Source of the DNA: Lachnospiraceae bacterium | GTDB lineage: Bacteria; Bacillota; Clostridia; Lachnospirales; Lachnospiraceae | Length of the DNA: 48,534 nucleotides | Assembly (NCBI GenBank): GCA_017440575.1 | Contig: JAFSGY010000033.1 | Span: 1 to 48,534, forward strand | Reading direction: 5' to 3' | Shown here: piece after piece, positions 19,580 through 35,843 of the stretch | Position numbering within the stretch: position 1 is the stretch's first letter | Layout of the letters: each line of letters opens with the position of its first letter | Notes under the pieces: model-generated | Told to the model about the DNA's origin: nothing | Database searches by the model: none | The model's input: only the letters and a program-made list of their open reading frames with translations | Position numbers and translations under genes: made by a program

Positions 19580-19591
19580 CCATTAGAATCG

Positions 19592-19611
19592 TGCGGAAGA
19601 TGGGACTTGAA
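19592..19611 (-). repeat. attR core in the tRNA-Leu 3' end
   Basis: Identical to attL 14000-14019 over 20 bp; similarity ends beyond it. Confidence 0.88.
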
Positions 19612-19675
19612 CCCACACGTCTATACGGACACAAGATCCTTAGTCTTGCCTGTCTGCCAATTCCAGCACTTCCGC
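19592..19675 (-). tRNA. tRNA-Leu (anticodon AAG), copy 1; carries attR
   Basis: 84 nt, acceptor GCGGAAG/CTTCCGC, long variable arm typical of Leu, GGTTCAAGTC T-arm. The anticodon stem CAAGA/TCTTG encloses CTAAGGA, giving anticodon AAG, which reads CUU and with inosine at 34 also CUC. CCA is not encoded. The last 20 nt are the att core, so the 3' end was rebuilt from the element. Confidence 0.93.
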
Positions 19676-19713
19676 ATGTCTAAAACAATATTTAATTACA
19701 TATTTGATAAAAC

Positions 19714-19797
19714 TGCGGAAGATGGGACTTGAACCCACACGTCTATACGGACACAAGATCCTTAGTCTTGCCTGTCTGCCAATTCCAGCACTTCCGC
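19714..19797 (-). tRNA. tRNA-Leu (anticodon AAG), copy 2
   Basis: Identical over all 84 nt to copy 1, 38 nt upstream in transcription direction. CCA not encoded. Co-transcribed with copy 1 from the promoter at 19866-19894. Its 3' end is an unused second att site. Confidence 0.93.
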
Positions 19798-19865
19798 GCA
19801 ACAGCAATATGTAATTAAGAATCGGAAATATATTTAATATATTTCTTCATCGCACTGCAAGAGAT

Positions 19866-19894
19866 ATATTATCATTATGAGAAAAATATGTCAA
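19866..19894 (-). promoter_or_regulatory. promoter of the tandem tRNA-Leu genes
   Basis: On the minus strand TTGACA (19894-19889), 17-bp spacer, TAATAT (19871-19866). Predicted start near 19859, about 60 nt before the first tRNA. Confidence 0.7.
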
Positions 19895-19949
19895 TATTTT
19901 TTTGAGAAAAATAAAAAAGTTTTTTTGAGGGGTTTTTATGGAAAAATGG

Positions 19950-19978
19950 TTGACAGAAATGCGTAAAAAAGGTAAAAT
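19950..19978 (+). promoter_or_regulatory. promoter of tRNA-Leu(CAG)
   Basis: TTGACA (19950-19955), 17-bp spacer, TAAAAT (19973-19978), 12 nt before the mature tRNA 5' end. Confidence 0.8.
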
Positions 19979-19989
19979 ATCATTTGTTC

Positions 19990-20073
19990 GCAGGAGTGGT
20001 GGAATTGGCAGACGCGCAGGCTTCAGGTGCCTGTGGTAGCAATACCGTGTGGGTTCAAGTCCCATCTCCTGCA
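19990..20073 (+). tRNA. tRNA-Leu (anticodon CAG)
   Basis: 84 nt; acceptor GCAGGAG/CTCCTGC, anticodon stem CAGGC/GCCTG around TTCAGGT giving CAG (reads CUG), long variable arm, GGTTCAAGTCCC T-arm. CCA not encoded. Divergent from the two AAG genes. Confidence 0.95.
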
Positions 20074-20117
20074 CTTTTTATTTTATGTGCAAGTATGTAT
20101 GCGGGATGAAGTATAAT

Positions 20118-28590: not shown

Positions 28591-28954
28591 GCAAGTGCGG
28601 CAAATGATCGCGGCTCCATTTTTTGGGGGTGAGGAAAGTCCGGGCTTCACAGGGCAGGATGCCGGATAACGTCCGGTGGAGGTGACTCCAAGGCCAGTGC
28701 AACAGAAATAAACCGCTCGATTAATCGAGTAAGGGTGGAAAGGCAGTGTAAGAGACTACCGCCTCTAAGGTAACGAGGAGGGCACATGTAAACCCCATCC
28801 GAAGCAAGACCAAGTTAGGAAACGATAGGTTTGCCCGACCTGTTTCCAGGTAGGTCGCTTGAGGCTGTTGGTAACAGCAGTCCTAGATAGATGATCATTC
28901 GTGTCATGAGGAGACTTGTGGCGCCGACATAACCCGGCTTATCGCTGCGCTTGC
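28591..28954 (+). ncRNA. rnpB: RNase P RNA, type A
   Basis: Catalytic RNA that matures tRNA 5' ends. P1 is closed by GCAAGTGCGGC (28591-28601) with GCTGCGCTTGC (28944-28954), including G-U pairs. Conserved blocks are visible: GAGGAAAGTCCGGGC near 28632, GCCAGTGCAACAGAAA near 28693, and ACATAACCCGGCTTATCG near 28928. Type A is inferred from the arrangement after the ACAGAAA block. About 364 nt. Own promoter and terminator. Confidence 0.95.
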
Positions 28955-28981
28955 AATATAAACAGGAATAATTAGAGTATG

Positions 28982-32031: not shown

Positions 32032-33207
32032 ATGACTAAGATAGATATTTTTTCCGGTTTTTTGGGAGCCGGTAAGACAACCTTGATTAAGAAGCTGCTC
32101 AAGGAAGCTATGGATGCTTCTAAGGTAGTGTTAATTGAGAATGAATTTGGTGAAATTGGTATTGACGGAGGCTTTTTAAAGGAAGCCGGCGTTGAGATTA
32201 AGGAAATGAATCAGGGTTGTATCTGCTGTTCGTTAGTAGGTGATTTCGGTGCTTCTCTGGCAGAAGTATTAGAGAAGTATCACCCGGAGAGAATCTTAAT
32301 CGAGCCATCCGGTGTTGGTAAGCTTTCTGATGTTATGAAGGCTGTACAGGATGTGGATTCAGATGTAGAGGTTGCATTGAACAGTGCCGTTGTAGTGGTT
32401 GATGCGAATAAGTGTAAAATGTATGCAAAGAATTTCGGTGAGTTTTTCTTAAATCAGATTGAGCATGCAGGAACTATTATCTTGAGCAGAACAGCAGGAA
32501 TCAGCGAGAGTAAGCTTGCAACTGCTATGGAGATTATTCGTGAGCATAATGAAAAGGCAACGATTATTACAACTCCTTGGGATGAGCTTGATGGAAAGCA
32601 GATTTTAGAAACAATTGAGAAGGCTAAGGACTTAGAGGCAGAGCTTATGGCAGAGGTTGCACATCACCACCATCATGAGCATGATGAGCATTGTACATGC
32701 GGCTGTCACGACCATGAGCATGAACATCATCATGAGCATCACCATCATCACGAACATGATGAGAACTGTACATGCGGCTGTCACGACCATGAGCATGAAC
32801 ATCATCATGAGCATGAAGACCATGAGCATCATCATCATCACGAGCATGATGAGAACTGTACATGTGGCTGCCATGATCACGAGCATGAACATCATCATGA
32901 CCATGAAGGACATCATCATCACCATCATGCGGATGAAGTATTTACAAGCTGGGGTATGGAAACACCAACAGCATATACAGCAGCTGAGATTGAGGCTATT
33001 CTTAAGAAGCTGGAAGAGGAAGAAACATATGGTATCATTCTTCGTGCGAAGGGTATGGTTCCGGCAGGAGATGGTACTTGGGTGAACTTCGATTATGTAC
33101 CGGGTGAGAGCAATGTAAGACCAGGTGCAGCAGAGGTAACTGGTAAGATTTGTGTAATCGGTTCTAAGTTACAGGAAGAGAATCTTAAAAAATTATTTGA
33201 GAAATAG
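32032..33207 (+). CDS. G3E/CobW-family GTPase with large Cys/His-rich metal-binding insert
   Basis: 391 aa, COG0523 metallochaperone family. Walker A GFLGAGKTT (9-17), the metal-relay motif C63-I-C65-C66, Walker B-like ILIEPSG near residue 100 and a CobW C-terminal domain (about 305-390). Between them, residues 211-299 are almost only His, Glu and Asp, with three copies of a unit containing CTCGCHDHEHEHHHEH; each adds three Cys and many His, giving nine Cys and around 50 His. This strongly suggests metal storage or delivery (Zn, Ni or Co). AGGAGG 8 nt upstream. Followed 13 nt later by a second G3E protein. Confidence 0.92.
   Translation: MTKIDIFSGFLGAGKTTLIKKLLKEAMDASKVVLIENEFGEIGIDGGFLKEAGVEIKEMNQGCICCSLVGDFGASLAEVLEKYHPERILIEPSGVGKLSDVMKAVQDVDSDVEVALNSAVVVVDANKCKMYAKNFGEFFLNQIEHAGTIILSRTAGISESKLATAMEIIREHNEKATIITTPWDELDGKQILETIEKAKDLEAELMAEVAHHHHHEHDEHCTCGCHDHEHEHHHEHHHHHEHDENCTCGCHDHEHEHHHEHEDHEHHHHHEHDENCTCGCHDHEHEHHHDHEGHHHHHHADEVFTSWGMETPTAYTAAEIEAILKKLEEEETYGIILRAKGMVPAGDGTWVNFDYVPGESNVRPGAAEVTGKICVIGSKLQEENLKKLFEK
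32662..32928 (+). repeat. three tandem imperfect repeats coding the His-rich insert
   Basis: Copies begin near 32677, 32752 and 32842, each containing GATGAG, TGTACATG and GGCTG followed by CATGAGCATGAACATCATCA. Near-identity of the copies suggests recent expansion by slippage or unequal exchange. Confidence 0.8.
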
Positions 33208-33220
33208 TTGGAGATAAAAT

Positions 33221-34153
33221 ATGAAGCCAGTTTATATTATTAATGGTTTTTTAGAGAGTGGTAAGACGGAATTTATTTCTTTTACCATTTCCCAGCCTTA
33301 CTTTCAGATACGTGGTAAGACATTGTTAATCGTATGTGAAGAAGGAGAAGTAGAATATGATGCTAAGCTTTTAAAGAAAAGCAGAACGATTATGGAAGTC
33401 ATTGAGGAAGAGGAAGATTTTACACCGGAGAAGCTGTTAGAGCTGGAAAAGGAGCATAAGCCAGAACGTATCGTTATCGAGTATAATGGTATGTGGAACT
33501 GTAAAGATATGAAGCTTCCATGGCATTGGGATGTGGAACAACAGATTACGACCGTTAATGGTGCGACTTTCCAGACCTATTATGCAAATATGAAGTCTCT
33601 GGTGGCAGAGCAGGTAAGAAAATCAGAGCTGATTATTTTCAATCGTTGTGATGGACTGAATGACCAACTTGCGAACTTTAAGAGAAATATCAAGGCAGTA
33701 AATCCGCAGGCAGAGATTATCTTTGAAGATAAGGATGGAGAGATTAATCAGTTATTAGAAGAGGATTTGCCTTATGACCTGAACCAGCCGGTAATTCCAC
33801 TTGATAACATGGGATATGGTATCTGGTATCTGGATTCGATGGACAATCTTGGAAGATATCTTGGTAAGACAGTAAAGTTTGTCGGCATGGTATTAAAGCC
33901 AAAGGAATTCCCACAGAATTATTTTGTGCCGGGAAGAATGGCAATGACCTGCTGTGCCGACGATATGGCATTTCTTGGATTTGCCTGTGAATATGACAAG
34001 GCTAGTGAGCTTACAGAAAAGTCATGGGTAGAGGTTACAGCAACCGTGGACAAGGAATATCGTCCGGAATTCAAGGCAGAAGGTCCGGTACTTCGTGCAG
34101 TCAGTGTTACTGCGGCAAAGAAGCCAAAGGATGAGATTATAAGCTTTAATTAA
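33221..34153 (+). CDS. G3E-like GTPase fused to a DUF1980 (YcgQ-like) domain
   Basis: 310 aa. N-terminal P-loop of the CobW type (GFLESGKTEF, 9-18) but without the CxCC motif of the upstream protein and with IVIEYNGMW at the Walker B region. From about residue 200 the sequence changes to an OB-like domain with GRMAMTCCADDMAFLG (C244, C245), matching the TIGR03943/DUF1980 protein YcgQ, which elsewhere pairs with a membrane permease and is zinc-regulated. A metal-handling partner of the upstream gene is inferred. Ends in a bidirectional terminator. Confidence 0.75.
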   Translation: MKPVYIINGFLESGKTEFISFTISQPYFQIRGKTLLIVCEEGEVEYDAKLLKKSRTIMEVIEEEEDFTPEKLLELEKEHKPERIVIEYNGMWNCKDMKLPWHWDVEQQITTVNGATFQTYYANMKSLVAEQVRKSELIIFNRCDGLNDQLANFKRNIKAVNPQAEIIFEDKDGEINQLLEEDLPYDLNQPVIPLDNMGYGIWYLDSMDNLGRYLGKTVKFVGMVLKPKEFPQNYFVPGRMAMTCCADDMAFLGFACEYDKASELTEKSWVEVTATVDKEYRPEFKAEGPVLRAVSVTAAKKPKDEIISFN

Positions 34154-34221: not shown

Positions 34222-34656
34222 TTAAAATTCTTTGCTTCCATATTTTTCTTCACAGTATTTGCAACGGTATACTTCCTTGGCTTCATCGGTTAAGACGAAA
34301 ATATGTGGCAATTCCTGTTCAATGGAAGTGATACAGCGAGGATTCTTACATTTTAAGACATTCTTAATCTCCTTTGGGAGTGAAAGTGGTAATTTCTCAA
34401 CGATTTCACAATTCTTAATCACATTAACTGTGATATTGTGGTCAATAAAGCCTAAGATATCAAGGTTTAAGGTATTGATGTCACATTCTACCTTTAAGAT
34501 ATCCTTTTTTCCCATCTTTTCACTTTTGGCATTTTTAATAATGGCAACGGTGCAGTCAAGCTTATCTAAGCCAAGATGCTTATAGATACTAAGGCTTTTG
34601 CCAGCCTTGATATGGTCTAATACGAAACCTTCTTCAATTTTTCCTACATTTAACAT
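34222..34656 (-). CDS. pyrI: aspartate carbamoyltransferase regulatory subunit
   Basis: 144 aa. N-terminal allosteric domain that binds nucleotides and C-terminal zinc domain with four Cys: C103, C108, C132, C135 (CKNPRC and CKYC), which contacts the catalytic subunit. Ribosome-binding site AGGCAAGG before ATG 34656. Lies 20 nt after pyrB in the same operon. The last domain is complete; length is close to that of E. coli PyrI (153 aa), slightly short at the N-terminus. Confidence 0.95.
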   Translation of the reverse strand: MLNVGKIEEGFVLDHIKAGKSLSIYKHLGLDKLDCTVAIIKNAKSEKMGKKDILKVECDINTLNLDILGFIDHNITVNVIKNCEIVEKLPLSLPKEIKNVLKCKNPRCITSIEQELPHIFVLTDEAKEVYRCKYCEEKYGSKEF

Positions 34657-34676: not shown

Positions 34677-35597
34677 TTATTCTTCTACGGTAATTTCTAG
34701 TAAAGTAAGCAACAGAGCCATTCTGACATAGACACCATACTGAACTTGACGAAAGTAAACCGCTCTTGGGTCATCGTCCACTTCAACAGAAATCTCATTT
34801 ACGCGTGGCAACGGATGAAGGACAATCATGTCATCCTTAGCAAGAGCCATCTTTTCCTTGTTTAAAATATAGAAATCTTTCAAACGCACATAGTCCTCTT
34901 CGTTGAAGAAACGTTCTCTCTGAACTCTTGTCATATAGAGAATATCTAATTCGGACATAACATCCTCTAACGCAGTAACCTCACGGTATGGAATGTCTTT
35001 TTCACGGAGCATTTCGATAATATATTCCGGAATCTTTAATTCATCCGGTGAGATGAAGACAAAGTTAATATTGTCATAACGTACTAATGCATTAATCAGC
35101 GAATGTACGGTTCTTCCAAATTTTAAGTCACCACATAAGCCAATTGTAAAGTTATTTAAGCGTCCTTTGATGGCACGGATGGTAAGTAAGTCTGTCAAGG
35201 TTTGTGTCGGATGCTGATGTCCGCCGTCACCGGCATTAATGACAGGAATGCTTGACTTGGTTGCAGCAACCATAGGGGCACCTTCCTTAGGATGGCGCAT
35301 AGCACAGATGTCTGCATAGCAGGAAATCATACGAATGGTATCTGATACGCTCTCACCCTTAGCAGCGGAAGAGGAACCAGCATCGGAAAAGCCAAGAACA
35401 TTTCCACCAAGACTAAGCATAGCGGATTCAAAGCTTAAGCGTGTTCTGGTACTAGGCTCATAGAAGCAGGTTGCCAGCTTCTTACCTGTACAGGCATGTG
35501 CATATTTTGCAGGATTGTGTTCAATATCATCGGCAAGCGTAAACAGCTTGTCCAGTTCTTCCACGGTAAAATCCAATGGGCTCATTAAGTGTCTCAT
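34677..35597 (-). CDS. pyrB: aspartate carbamoyltransferase catalytic subunit
   Basis: 306 aa. Catalyses carbamoyl phosphate plus aspartate to carbamoyl aspartate, the first committed step of pyrimidine synthesis. Signature [13 protein letters not shown] with S49-T50-R51-T52-R53 for carbamoyl phosphate, DGGHQHPTQ and VLHPLPR. Start at 35597 is chosen because AAGGAGG lies 6 nt upstream, not at the longer ORF start. With pyrI it should form the allosteric 2C3:3R2 enzyme. Preceded by a leader peptide and an intrinsic terminator, so expression is probably attenuated. Confidence 0.96.
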
Positions 35598-35631
35598 AAG
35601 AATCCTCCTTTGAATAAAATCGAATGTGCGC

Positions 35632-35659
35632 AAAAAAAGAAGAGAATATTCTCTTCTTT
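35632..35659 (-). terminator. attenuator before pyrB
   Basis: On the minus strand AAAGAAGAGAAT (35659-35648) pairs perfectly with ATTCTCTTCTTT (35647-35636) and is followed by further T to a run of seven. The leader-peptide stop codon (35660-35658) overlaps its first bases, and pyrB begins 35 nt after the U-run. Confidence 0.88.
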
Positions 35660-35774
35660 AAATATTTACATTATAAAAATCAAAATGTCTGACAATGGAA
35701 AAAGAAATAAAAGTATCATGCTGTCTGAAATGGTTACTATGTAATTTATTCACATTACCAATGGATACAGCCAT
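35658..35774 (-). CDS. pyrB leader peptide (PyrL-like), 38 aa
   Basis: ATG at 35774 with AAAAGGAG 8 nt upstream; begins MAVSIGNVNKLHSNHF and ends with stop TAA at 35660-35658. Codons 22-26 and 31-34 lie in U-rich runs (ACTTTTATTTCTTTTTCC and GATTTTTAT). The stop touches the 5' arm of the terminator, so a ribosome finishing the peptide would block the hairpin. E. coli pyrBI has the same layout: slow, UTP-limited polymerase lets the ribosome catch up and prevent termination. I infer the same UTP sensing here. The peptide itself is not similar to E. coli PyrL. Confidence 0.7.
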   Translation of the reverse strand: MAVSIGNVNKLHSNHFRQHDTFISFSIVRHFDFYNVNI

Positions 35775-35814
35775 GACGGAATCTCCTTTTCTATCAGTTC
35801 AATATACTTTTTTA

Positions 35815-35843
35815 ATCATAGCATATCAGGAGAAGGGTTTCAA
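35815..35843 (-). promoter_or_regulatory. promoter of the pyrBI operon
   Basis: On the minus strand TTGAAA (35843-35838), 17-bp spacer, TATGAT (35820-35815). Start near 35808, about 34 nt before the leader-peptide ATG. Confidence 0.8.

Follow-up and report, generated by a model that had tools for sequence, protein, structure and literature searches.

A putative translation-controlled transcription attenuator of pyrBI in Lachnospiraceae with the layout of the Escherichia coli pyrBI attenuator

The pyrB-pyrI operon in the stretch of DNA analysed here (the window, 48,534 nucleotides of Lachnospiraceae bacterium contig JAFSGY010000033.1) is on balance probably controlled by a transcription attenuator that depends on translation of a leader ORF, as in E. 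coli pyrBI, with tuning by UTP as the inferred signal. A promoter, a leader ORF and a terminator are present ahead of pyrB-pyrI on the minus strand (35843-35632), and the best reading of the comparisons below is an attenuator of separate origin from enterobacterial pyrL, in Lachnospiraceae, that would be convergent in mechanism if the model holds. The original prediction, made from the window alone, had named a promoter, a 38-codon leader ORF with a strong ribosome-binding site and a U-rich second half, and a seven-U tail before pyrB; each of these is found where it was placed, Table 1. Its perfect 12-bp stem touched by the stop codon stands as a 24-nt palindrome, but the fold has 10 pairs and a 4-nt loop, and the stop codon and the stem share 2 nt.

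Table 1. Features of the pyrB upstream region and the pyrBI operon in the window.
Feature	Positions	Strand	Basis or detail
Sigma-A-type promoter TTGAAA-N17-TATGAT, extended -10 TG	35815..35843	-	10/12 matches to pattern
Ribosome-binding site AAAGGAG of leader ORF	35783..35789	-	8 nt ahead of ATG 35774
Leader ORF, 38 codons + TAA (35660-35658), MAVSIGNVNKLHSNHFRQHDTFISFSIVRHFDFYNVNI	35658..35774	-	ORF translation
U-rich block CUUUUAUUUCUUUUUCCAUUGUCAGACAUUUUGAUUUUUAUAA, proposed RNA polymerase pausing/UTP-sensing region	35671..35713	-	base composition
Terminator hairpin, 24-nt palindrome	35636..35659	-	10 pairs + 4-nt loop, -10.6 kcal/mol
U tail, 7 U	35632..35638	-	sequence
pyrB SD AAGGAGG	35604-35610	-	sequence
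pyrB, aspartate carbamoyltransferase catalytic chain, ATG 35597	34677..35597	-	Pfam PF02729, PF00185
pyrI, aspartate carbamoyltransferase regulatory chain	34222..34656	-	Pfam PF01948, PF02748

Transcription is predicted to start near 35808 on the minus strand. A consensus terminator scan of the window did not flag this hairpin, and promoter-like sites in the AT-rich stretch number 17 against a shuffle mean of 15.0 (sd 3.9), which is no excess, so the case rests on comparison: promoter and terminator are each non-significant by pattern alone, while their combination and conservation exceed chance. Dinucleotide shuffling of the window locus gave an SD-led ATG ORF reaching the hairpin in 0.6% of cases, and the predicted fold of the complete leader is more stable than that of 199 of 200 shuffled versions (z -2.85). 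A promoter of like kind occurs in most congeners, including most of those that have no attenuator. Just 3’ of the -10 box, the stretch at 35822-35800 (TATCAAAAGTAT-like) is alike in congeners with and without the attenuator and could be related to the start site.

Elsewhere in the window, three tRNA-Leu genes lie within 0.5 kb (19591-20074), two on the minus strand with anticodon AAG, which is unusual for bacteria, and one on the plus strand with CAG. The window also holds a class A RNase P RNA (28592-28957) and, at 32032-33207, a gene that by eye encodes a CobW-like GTPase with a long repeated His/Asp/Glu/Cys-rich stretch, next to which stands a second CobW-like gene (33221-34153).

PyrB was detected in 32 of the 38 genomes of the genus and in 371 of 397 sampled family genomes. 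All 32 pyrB upstream regions of the genus set, including L230 and L231, were read, and terminators were called from these readings and from the folds. A terminator stands ahead of pyrB in 23 congeners and is absent from eight; the remaining region, L136, is too truncated or rearranged to judge (259 nt upstream only, promoter not seen) and was left out, and it carries no label in the tree described below. Two further loci were left out: L135, whose upstream region is identical to that of L134, and L140, where the contig ends 73 nt before pyrB and only the terminator is seen, yet whose tree label is that of a leader. The AU-rich hairpin of L130 lies upstream of the promoter and was not counted, and for L133 the conserved hairpin was used, the strongest match of the hairpin finder being a false one.

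In 18 of the 21 distinct readable congener loci, the terminator is reached by an SD-led ATG ORF whose start codon lies 72 nt or more ahead of the stem; in shuffles this happens in 0.3-2.5% per locus. Among the other three, L114 has the homologous leader ORF behind a weaker SD, L122 has the hairpin and no ORF, and in L231 the start codon of the leader lies inside the terminator hairpin, from which the ORF runs for 35 codons towards pyrB within the last 200 nt before it; in L231 ribosome binding itself might block the terminator. No SD-ATG ORF of 20 codons or more was found in the last 230 nt of the eight terminator-less congeners, which have a promoter by pattern in seven cases and by eye in L139. 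The association of ORF with terminator is 19/21 versus 0/8 (L114 scored as positive, L122 and L231 as negative; Fisher p 1e-5, relatedness uncorrected), and both are conserved across divergences with a pyrB dS of 0.9-2.7 in eight of the 11 pairs compared. Spacing between SD and ATG in congener leaders is mostly 8 nt, with 5 nt in L116, L119 and L123 and 9 nt in L126 and L127, and the hairpin in many relatives folds with -5.8 kcal/mol (window -10.6).

Translation-dependent attenuation at pyrB is well supported by this comparison. Alignment of congener pyrB upstream regions had been put forward with the original prediction as its check, and in most terminator-bearing regions the ORF, the ribosome-binding site, the U-richness and the contact with the hairpin are kept. 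What did not persist is the spacing between stop codon and hairpin: the stop-to-stem distance ranges from +10 to -108 nt in congeners, and six leaders (L116, L119, L123, L127, L133 and L134) stop 48-108 nt past the start of the hairpin. A pyrBI-type attenuator outside the enterobacteria therefore survives as ribosome-dependent attenuation, without a fixed stop position.

The window has a T fraction of 0.55 in the 60 nt before the stem versus 0.27 in pyrB, and the corresponding range across 19 leaders is 0.45-0.67. By codon position, leader T is 0.42, 0.38 and 0.60 (T1, T2 and T3), and at NNY codons T3/(T3+C3) is 0.82 in eight representative leaders versus 0.55 in pyrB of the same genomes. Leader divergence is lower than pyrB dS in all eleven pairs compared; higher retention of T than of non-T sites is partly a composition effect and is not taken as proof. 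We read these figures as selection on a U-rich RNA, in which U is preferred even at synonymous sites.

Homologous leader ORFs were found in L113 and L114, and the peptides of other congeners are dissimilar. Substitutions between the window and L113 number 3/6/4 at the three codon positions of the leader and 14/4/116 in pyrB, whose protein is 97% identical at a dS of 1.3; between the window and L114 they number 6/8/7 in the leader and 34/14/116 in pyrB. Over eleven pairs, leader dN/dS is about 0.4 to 1.2, which leaves room for some weak constraint on the peptide, while pyrB changes mostly at third positions. The differences are unevenly spread along the leader: L001 and L113 differ at 1 of 58 sites in the 3’ half and 12 of 57 in the 5’ half, and L001 and L114 at 9 of 58 and 12 of 57, respectively. 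The near-identity of the 3’ half between L001 and L113 exceeds what U-richness alone demands. A search of 299 family genomes with the leader peptide gave only its own locus as a strong match (next E 0.008); that sample holds one other congener, and its listed part is without G311 and G314, near relatives that have homologous leaders. Leader DNA gave no match to plasmids.

A conserved block around TTTTCAGACA (TTTCCATTnTCAGACATTTT in its clearest form) is common to the window group and to a second group of leaders, and it is read in two frames. Among the 11 leaders entered in the frame comparison (the search string did not match L230), the offset is 2 in L001, L113 and L114 and 0 in L118, L121, L125, L126, L127, L137 and L138. 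Lengths from ATG to stem in the second group are multiples of three in eight of ten (111, 111, 96, 96, 102, 84, 81 and 81), the exceptions being L230 (101, with one base missing behind the stop codon) and L126 (94). With substitutions spread over all codon positions and the shared block in two frames, the expectation that the peptide drifts while the layout persists is borne out, and the amino acid sequence as such appears unimportant. One RNA block in two frames offers a clean natural test that translation would count and the peptide would not.

Other kinds of switch were sought in the same leaders. RNAalifold on 13 leaders returned the terminator only, with seven pairs and no compensatory change, and at the gathering score Rfam placed no element in the leader region, the sole sub-threshold match being STnc290 (E 0.17, far below the cut-off); a riboswitch with a conserved aptamer was rejected on these results. 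A trp-type antiterminator formed by the U-rich block and the 5’ arm of the terminator was likewise rejected, as this pairing is not above shuffles in 19 leaders (p 0.09-0.96), and an amino-acid attenuator of the trp type is set aside given the lack of an exclusive antiterminator and the shared block in two frames. Sequestration of the SD by the U-rich block was rejected as a general feature, p being below 0.05 in only 4 of 19 leaders.

PyrR was found in none of the 38 genus genomes at E 1e-10, while 6 of 14 control genomes were positive; 18 of the 38 have a completeness of 90% or more and a contamination of 5% or less. The window's own genome is 78% complete and gave sub-threshold PyrR-like matches only (best 35 bits versus a cut-off of 138), so the absence of PyrR rests on the relatives. 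A PyrR/pyr-RNA attenuator was rejected on the lack of PyrR in the genus and of an RF00515 match in the window. The operon is pyrBI. The same kind of leader was sought by eye before carA and pyrF in six genomes and no attenuator was seen; carA matches came from five of the six (none from the own genome) and gave four readable upstream regions, the L258 frame not being carA, and pyrF from all six.

Several rival explanations keep some of the evidence. Ribosome-dependent attenuation with a signal other than UTP, in which the leader would report general translation (initiation rate, stress, translation inhibitors), possibly via pairing of the ribosome-binding site with the U-rich block, is unlikely and still the most substantial of them. 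In the window the SD region pairs with the U-rich block over 16 pairs at -12.6 kcal/mol (p 0.037), which could indicate a different switch, and the pairing is also significant in L113 (p 0.043) and in L114 and L121 (both p < 0.004); ribosome-mediated attenuators of B. subtilis are moreover reported to answer antibiotics (PMC6851288, PMC4191407). In 15 of 19 leaders, however, p for this pairing is 0.05 or above; moreover, synonymous sites are enriched in U, and the gene under control supplies a UTP precursor. Improbable is the view that the ORF is incidental and that an RNA element with an unknown ligand or an RNA-binding protein controls the terminator: RNAalifold and Rfam show no such element, most differences in leader length are multiples of three, the SD and ATG persist, and the same layout is found with dissimilar peptides. 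In its favour, nucleotides are under more constraint than amino acids, and L001 and L113 are almost identical in the 3’ half.

A nascent-peptide or amino-acid attenuator, in which a peptide motif or codons for an amino acid in short supply would stall the ribosome, would fit the frequency of Phe, the commonest residue at 16% of leader codons sampled, and the leader dN/dS below 1 in most pairs, but the Phe excess follows from U-richness, the peptide is unconserved beyond near relatives, the block occurs in different frames and there is no antiterminator; we regard it as very improbable. Hardly any weight is given either to a leaky constitutive terminator or a Rho-linked stop of no regulatory role, with the ORF kept by chance. 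The co-occurrence of ORF and terminator and their conservation over long divergence argue against it, as does the lack of C enrichment in the leader (C 0.05-0.25 over the 60 nt ahead of the stem), although the hairpins are weak and pyrimidine-rich RNA is reported to favour Rho in B. subtilis (PMC13323073).

Under the preferred reading, translation-controlled attenuation tuned by UTP, RNA polymerase would leave the promoter and transcribe in turn the ribosome-binding site of the leader, the U-rich half of its ORF and the hairpin. With ample UTP, the polymerase would cross the U-rich block fast, the first ribosome would lag, and the hairpin would fold and stop transcription before pyrB. When UTP is scarce the polymerase would slow or pause in the block, the ribosome would catch up, translating as far as the stop codon at the hairpin base, and its footprint on the 5’ arm would let the polymerase continue into pyrBI. 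We infer termination in vivo, polymerase pausing and UTP as the signal, the last from the U-rich block together with the pathway controlled.

In E. coli, a terminator is reported to have dropped in efficiency from about 90% to less than 10% when the preceding stop codon was brought from 28 nt to within 5 nt of it, and uncoupled translation abolished repression (PMC4824070); coupling across pyrL is described as needed to prevent the pyrBI terminator (PMC5021804). Against simple coupling stands the classing of Bacillota as a phylum with runaway transcription (PMC13323073). Since B. subtilis normally has terminators soon after stop codons (PMC7858274), a short gap alone is no sign of coupling. 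B. subtilis NusG is reported to pause at TTNTTT motifs, of which few pause strongly, and pausing in the tlrB leader buys time for leader translation (PMC12288461). By analogy, pausing of this type could make a fast polymerase wait. Two TTNTTT motifs lie in the 75 nt before the stem in the window.

Outside the genus, the family set comprised 28 further loci, 78 fetched regions and the best 80 named loci, mostly titled Lachnospiraceae, of a longer match list; with the genus this gave 218 upstream regions (203 distinct), which are part of the 371 genomes with PyrB and some of which are short at contig ends. A loose ORF test was passed by 6 of 23 loci. Three are counted, L047, L098 and L180, in which a leader ORF with a dissimilar peptide meets a terminator (T 0.55, 0.45 and 0.52); L050 (ORFs overlapping the end of the upstream gene), L157 (TTG start) and L170 (GTG start, 110 codons) were left out. 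A tree of 40 pyrB genes, from which L180, L230 and L231 are absent, requires six changes of the attenuator label, five of them forced by well-supported branches, and thus several gains or losses, and a separate origin of the L047 and L098 leaders is likely.

A different arrangement is common in the wider family, where a sequence-motif test on the upstream ORF found a nitroreductase gene ahead of pyrB in 97 of the 203 distinct regions (one fragment was checked with Pfam, and at least one call, L101, looks false). A terminator follows the nitroreductase gene in 86 of these roughly 97 pairs, at a median gap of 6 nt and within 20 nt in 80 of the 86, and ends within 40 nt of the pyrB ATG in 44 of the 86; in L033-L112 and fetched family loci (e.g. 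L097, L083, L073) it often lies 16-40 nt before pyrB. A gap of 40 nt or less would be too short for a separate promoter behind the terminator, and pyrB in this position probably depends on read-through. Among the 80 named loci, a terminator at such a short distance from the following gene occurs in 4 of 126 other gene pairs versus 31 of 56 listed nitroreductase-pyrB terminators, and the gap from stop codon to terminator is at most 9 nt for 44 of the 56 versus 30 of 85 control gene ends; the hairpin limit was -8 kcal/mol for the controls and -5 for the nitroreductase count, with little effect since 82 of the 86 hairpins are at -13 or stronger. The short gap was rejected as proof of coupling, being also expected under runaway transcription (PMC7858274). 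At the nitroreductase 3’ end there is no clear enrichment of U, T being 0.21 over the final 60 nt and 0.34 over the final 30 nt against 0.27 in the body. With U content not clearly raised and short gaps normal in B. subtilis, a regulated attenuator at the nitroreductase-pyrB terminator is less likely than not. Further intercistronic attenuators are possible on the minus strand of L037 and L109, where other gene pairs are separated by a terminator that follows the stop codon by 5-6 nt and precedes the next gene by 17-22 nt.

A broader reading, to which we give somewhat less than even confidence, is that Lachnospiraceae evolved translation-coupled UTP attenuators of pyrB repeatedly and independently of the enterobacteria, in a phylum classed as runaway. 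The U-rich leader would programme local coupling, with its RNA selected in any frame as long as it is translated, and in other lineages the nitroreductase gene would serve as leader, as rph does for pyrE in E. coli. If true, this would provide pyrimidine control for PyrR-less Lachnospiraceae and a convergent counterpart of the textbook E. coli mechanism, and it would make testable whether local ribosome-polymerase coupling occurs in Bacillota classed as runaway when the sequence programmes it. Titles and abstract openings among the matches listed in the open-access literature included no leader-peptide pyrB attenuator in Bacillota, which is no proof of novelty; PMC2965389 describes a histidine leader peptide for hisS in bacilli, and pyrB is unmentioned in its main text.

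Among known systems, the E. coli rph-pyrE attenuator, in which rph is the upstream leader gene (a reference title in PMC6941894), resembles the nitroreductase-terminator-pyrB layout of the wider family and not the arrangement in the window. B. subtilis tlrB (yxjB) and bmrCD are the Bacillota systems in which a terminator is governed by a ribosome on a leader ORF, as proposed for the window locus; they differ in answering antibiotics, and tlrB adds translation attenuation, whereas here the terminator is the sole predicted structure and pyrBI is the operon concerned. The PyrR-dependent pyr attenuators of Bacillus (RF00515) likewise act on pyrimidine genes of Bacillota through transcription attenuation; they differ by PyrR and by the RNA element, neither of which was matched here (38 of 38 genus genomes and the window, respectively).

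The closest likeness is to E. coli pyrBI, and there too differences are found. The UTP-dependent reiterative initiation at the AATTTG start of E. coli pyrBI has no obvious counterpart here, and the hairpin is AU-rich, unlike that of E. coli. E. coli pyrL runs through the hairpin and ends 3 nt before pyrB, while the window ORF stops at the hairpin and those of some congeners run through; T is 0.30 in the last 60 nt in E. coli versus 0.55 in the window, where U extends over a longer stretch. The two leader peptides gave no alignment at E 100 and side by side have only VRHF in common, which is taken as chance, so the peptides give no indication of common descent with enterobacterial pyrL. Both systems nevertheless consist of a pyrB-pyrI operon with its own promoter, an SD-led leader ORF (44 codons in E. 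coli, 38 here) and a pyrimidine-rich stretch followed by a U-tailed hairpin within ribosome reach. The original description of the region as having the layout of the E. coli pyrBI attenuator is borne out by a leader ORF with a ribosome-binding site between promoter and terminator, no antiterminator being detected, and by a leader ORF end from which a ribosome would cover the hairpin.
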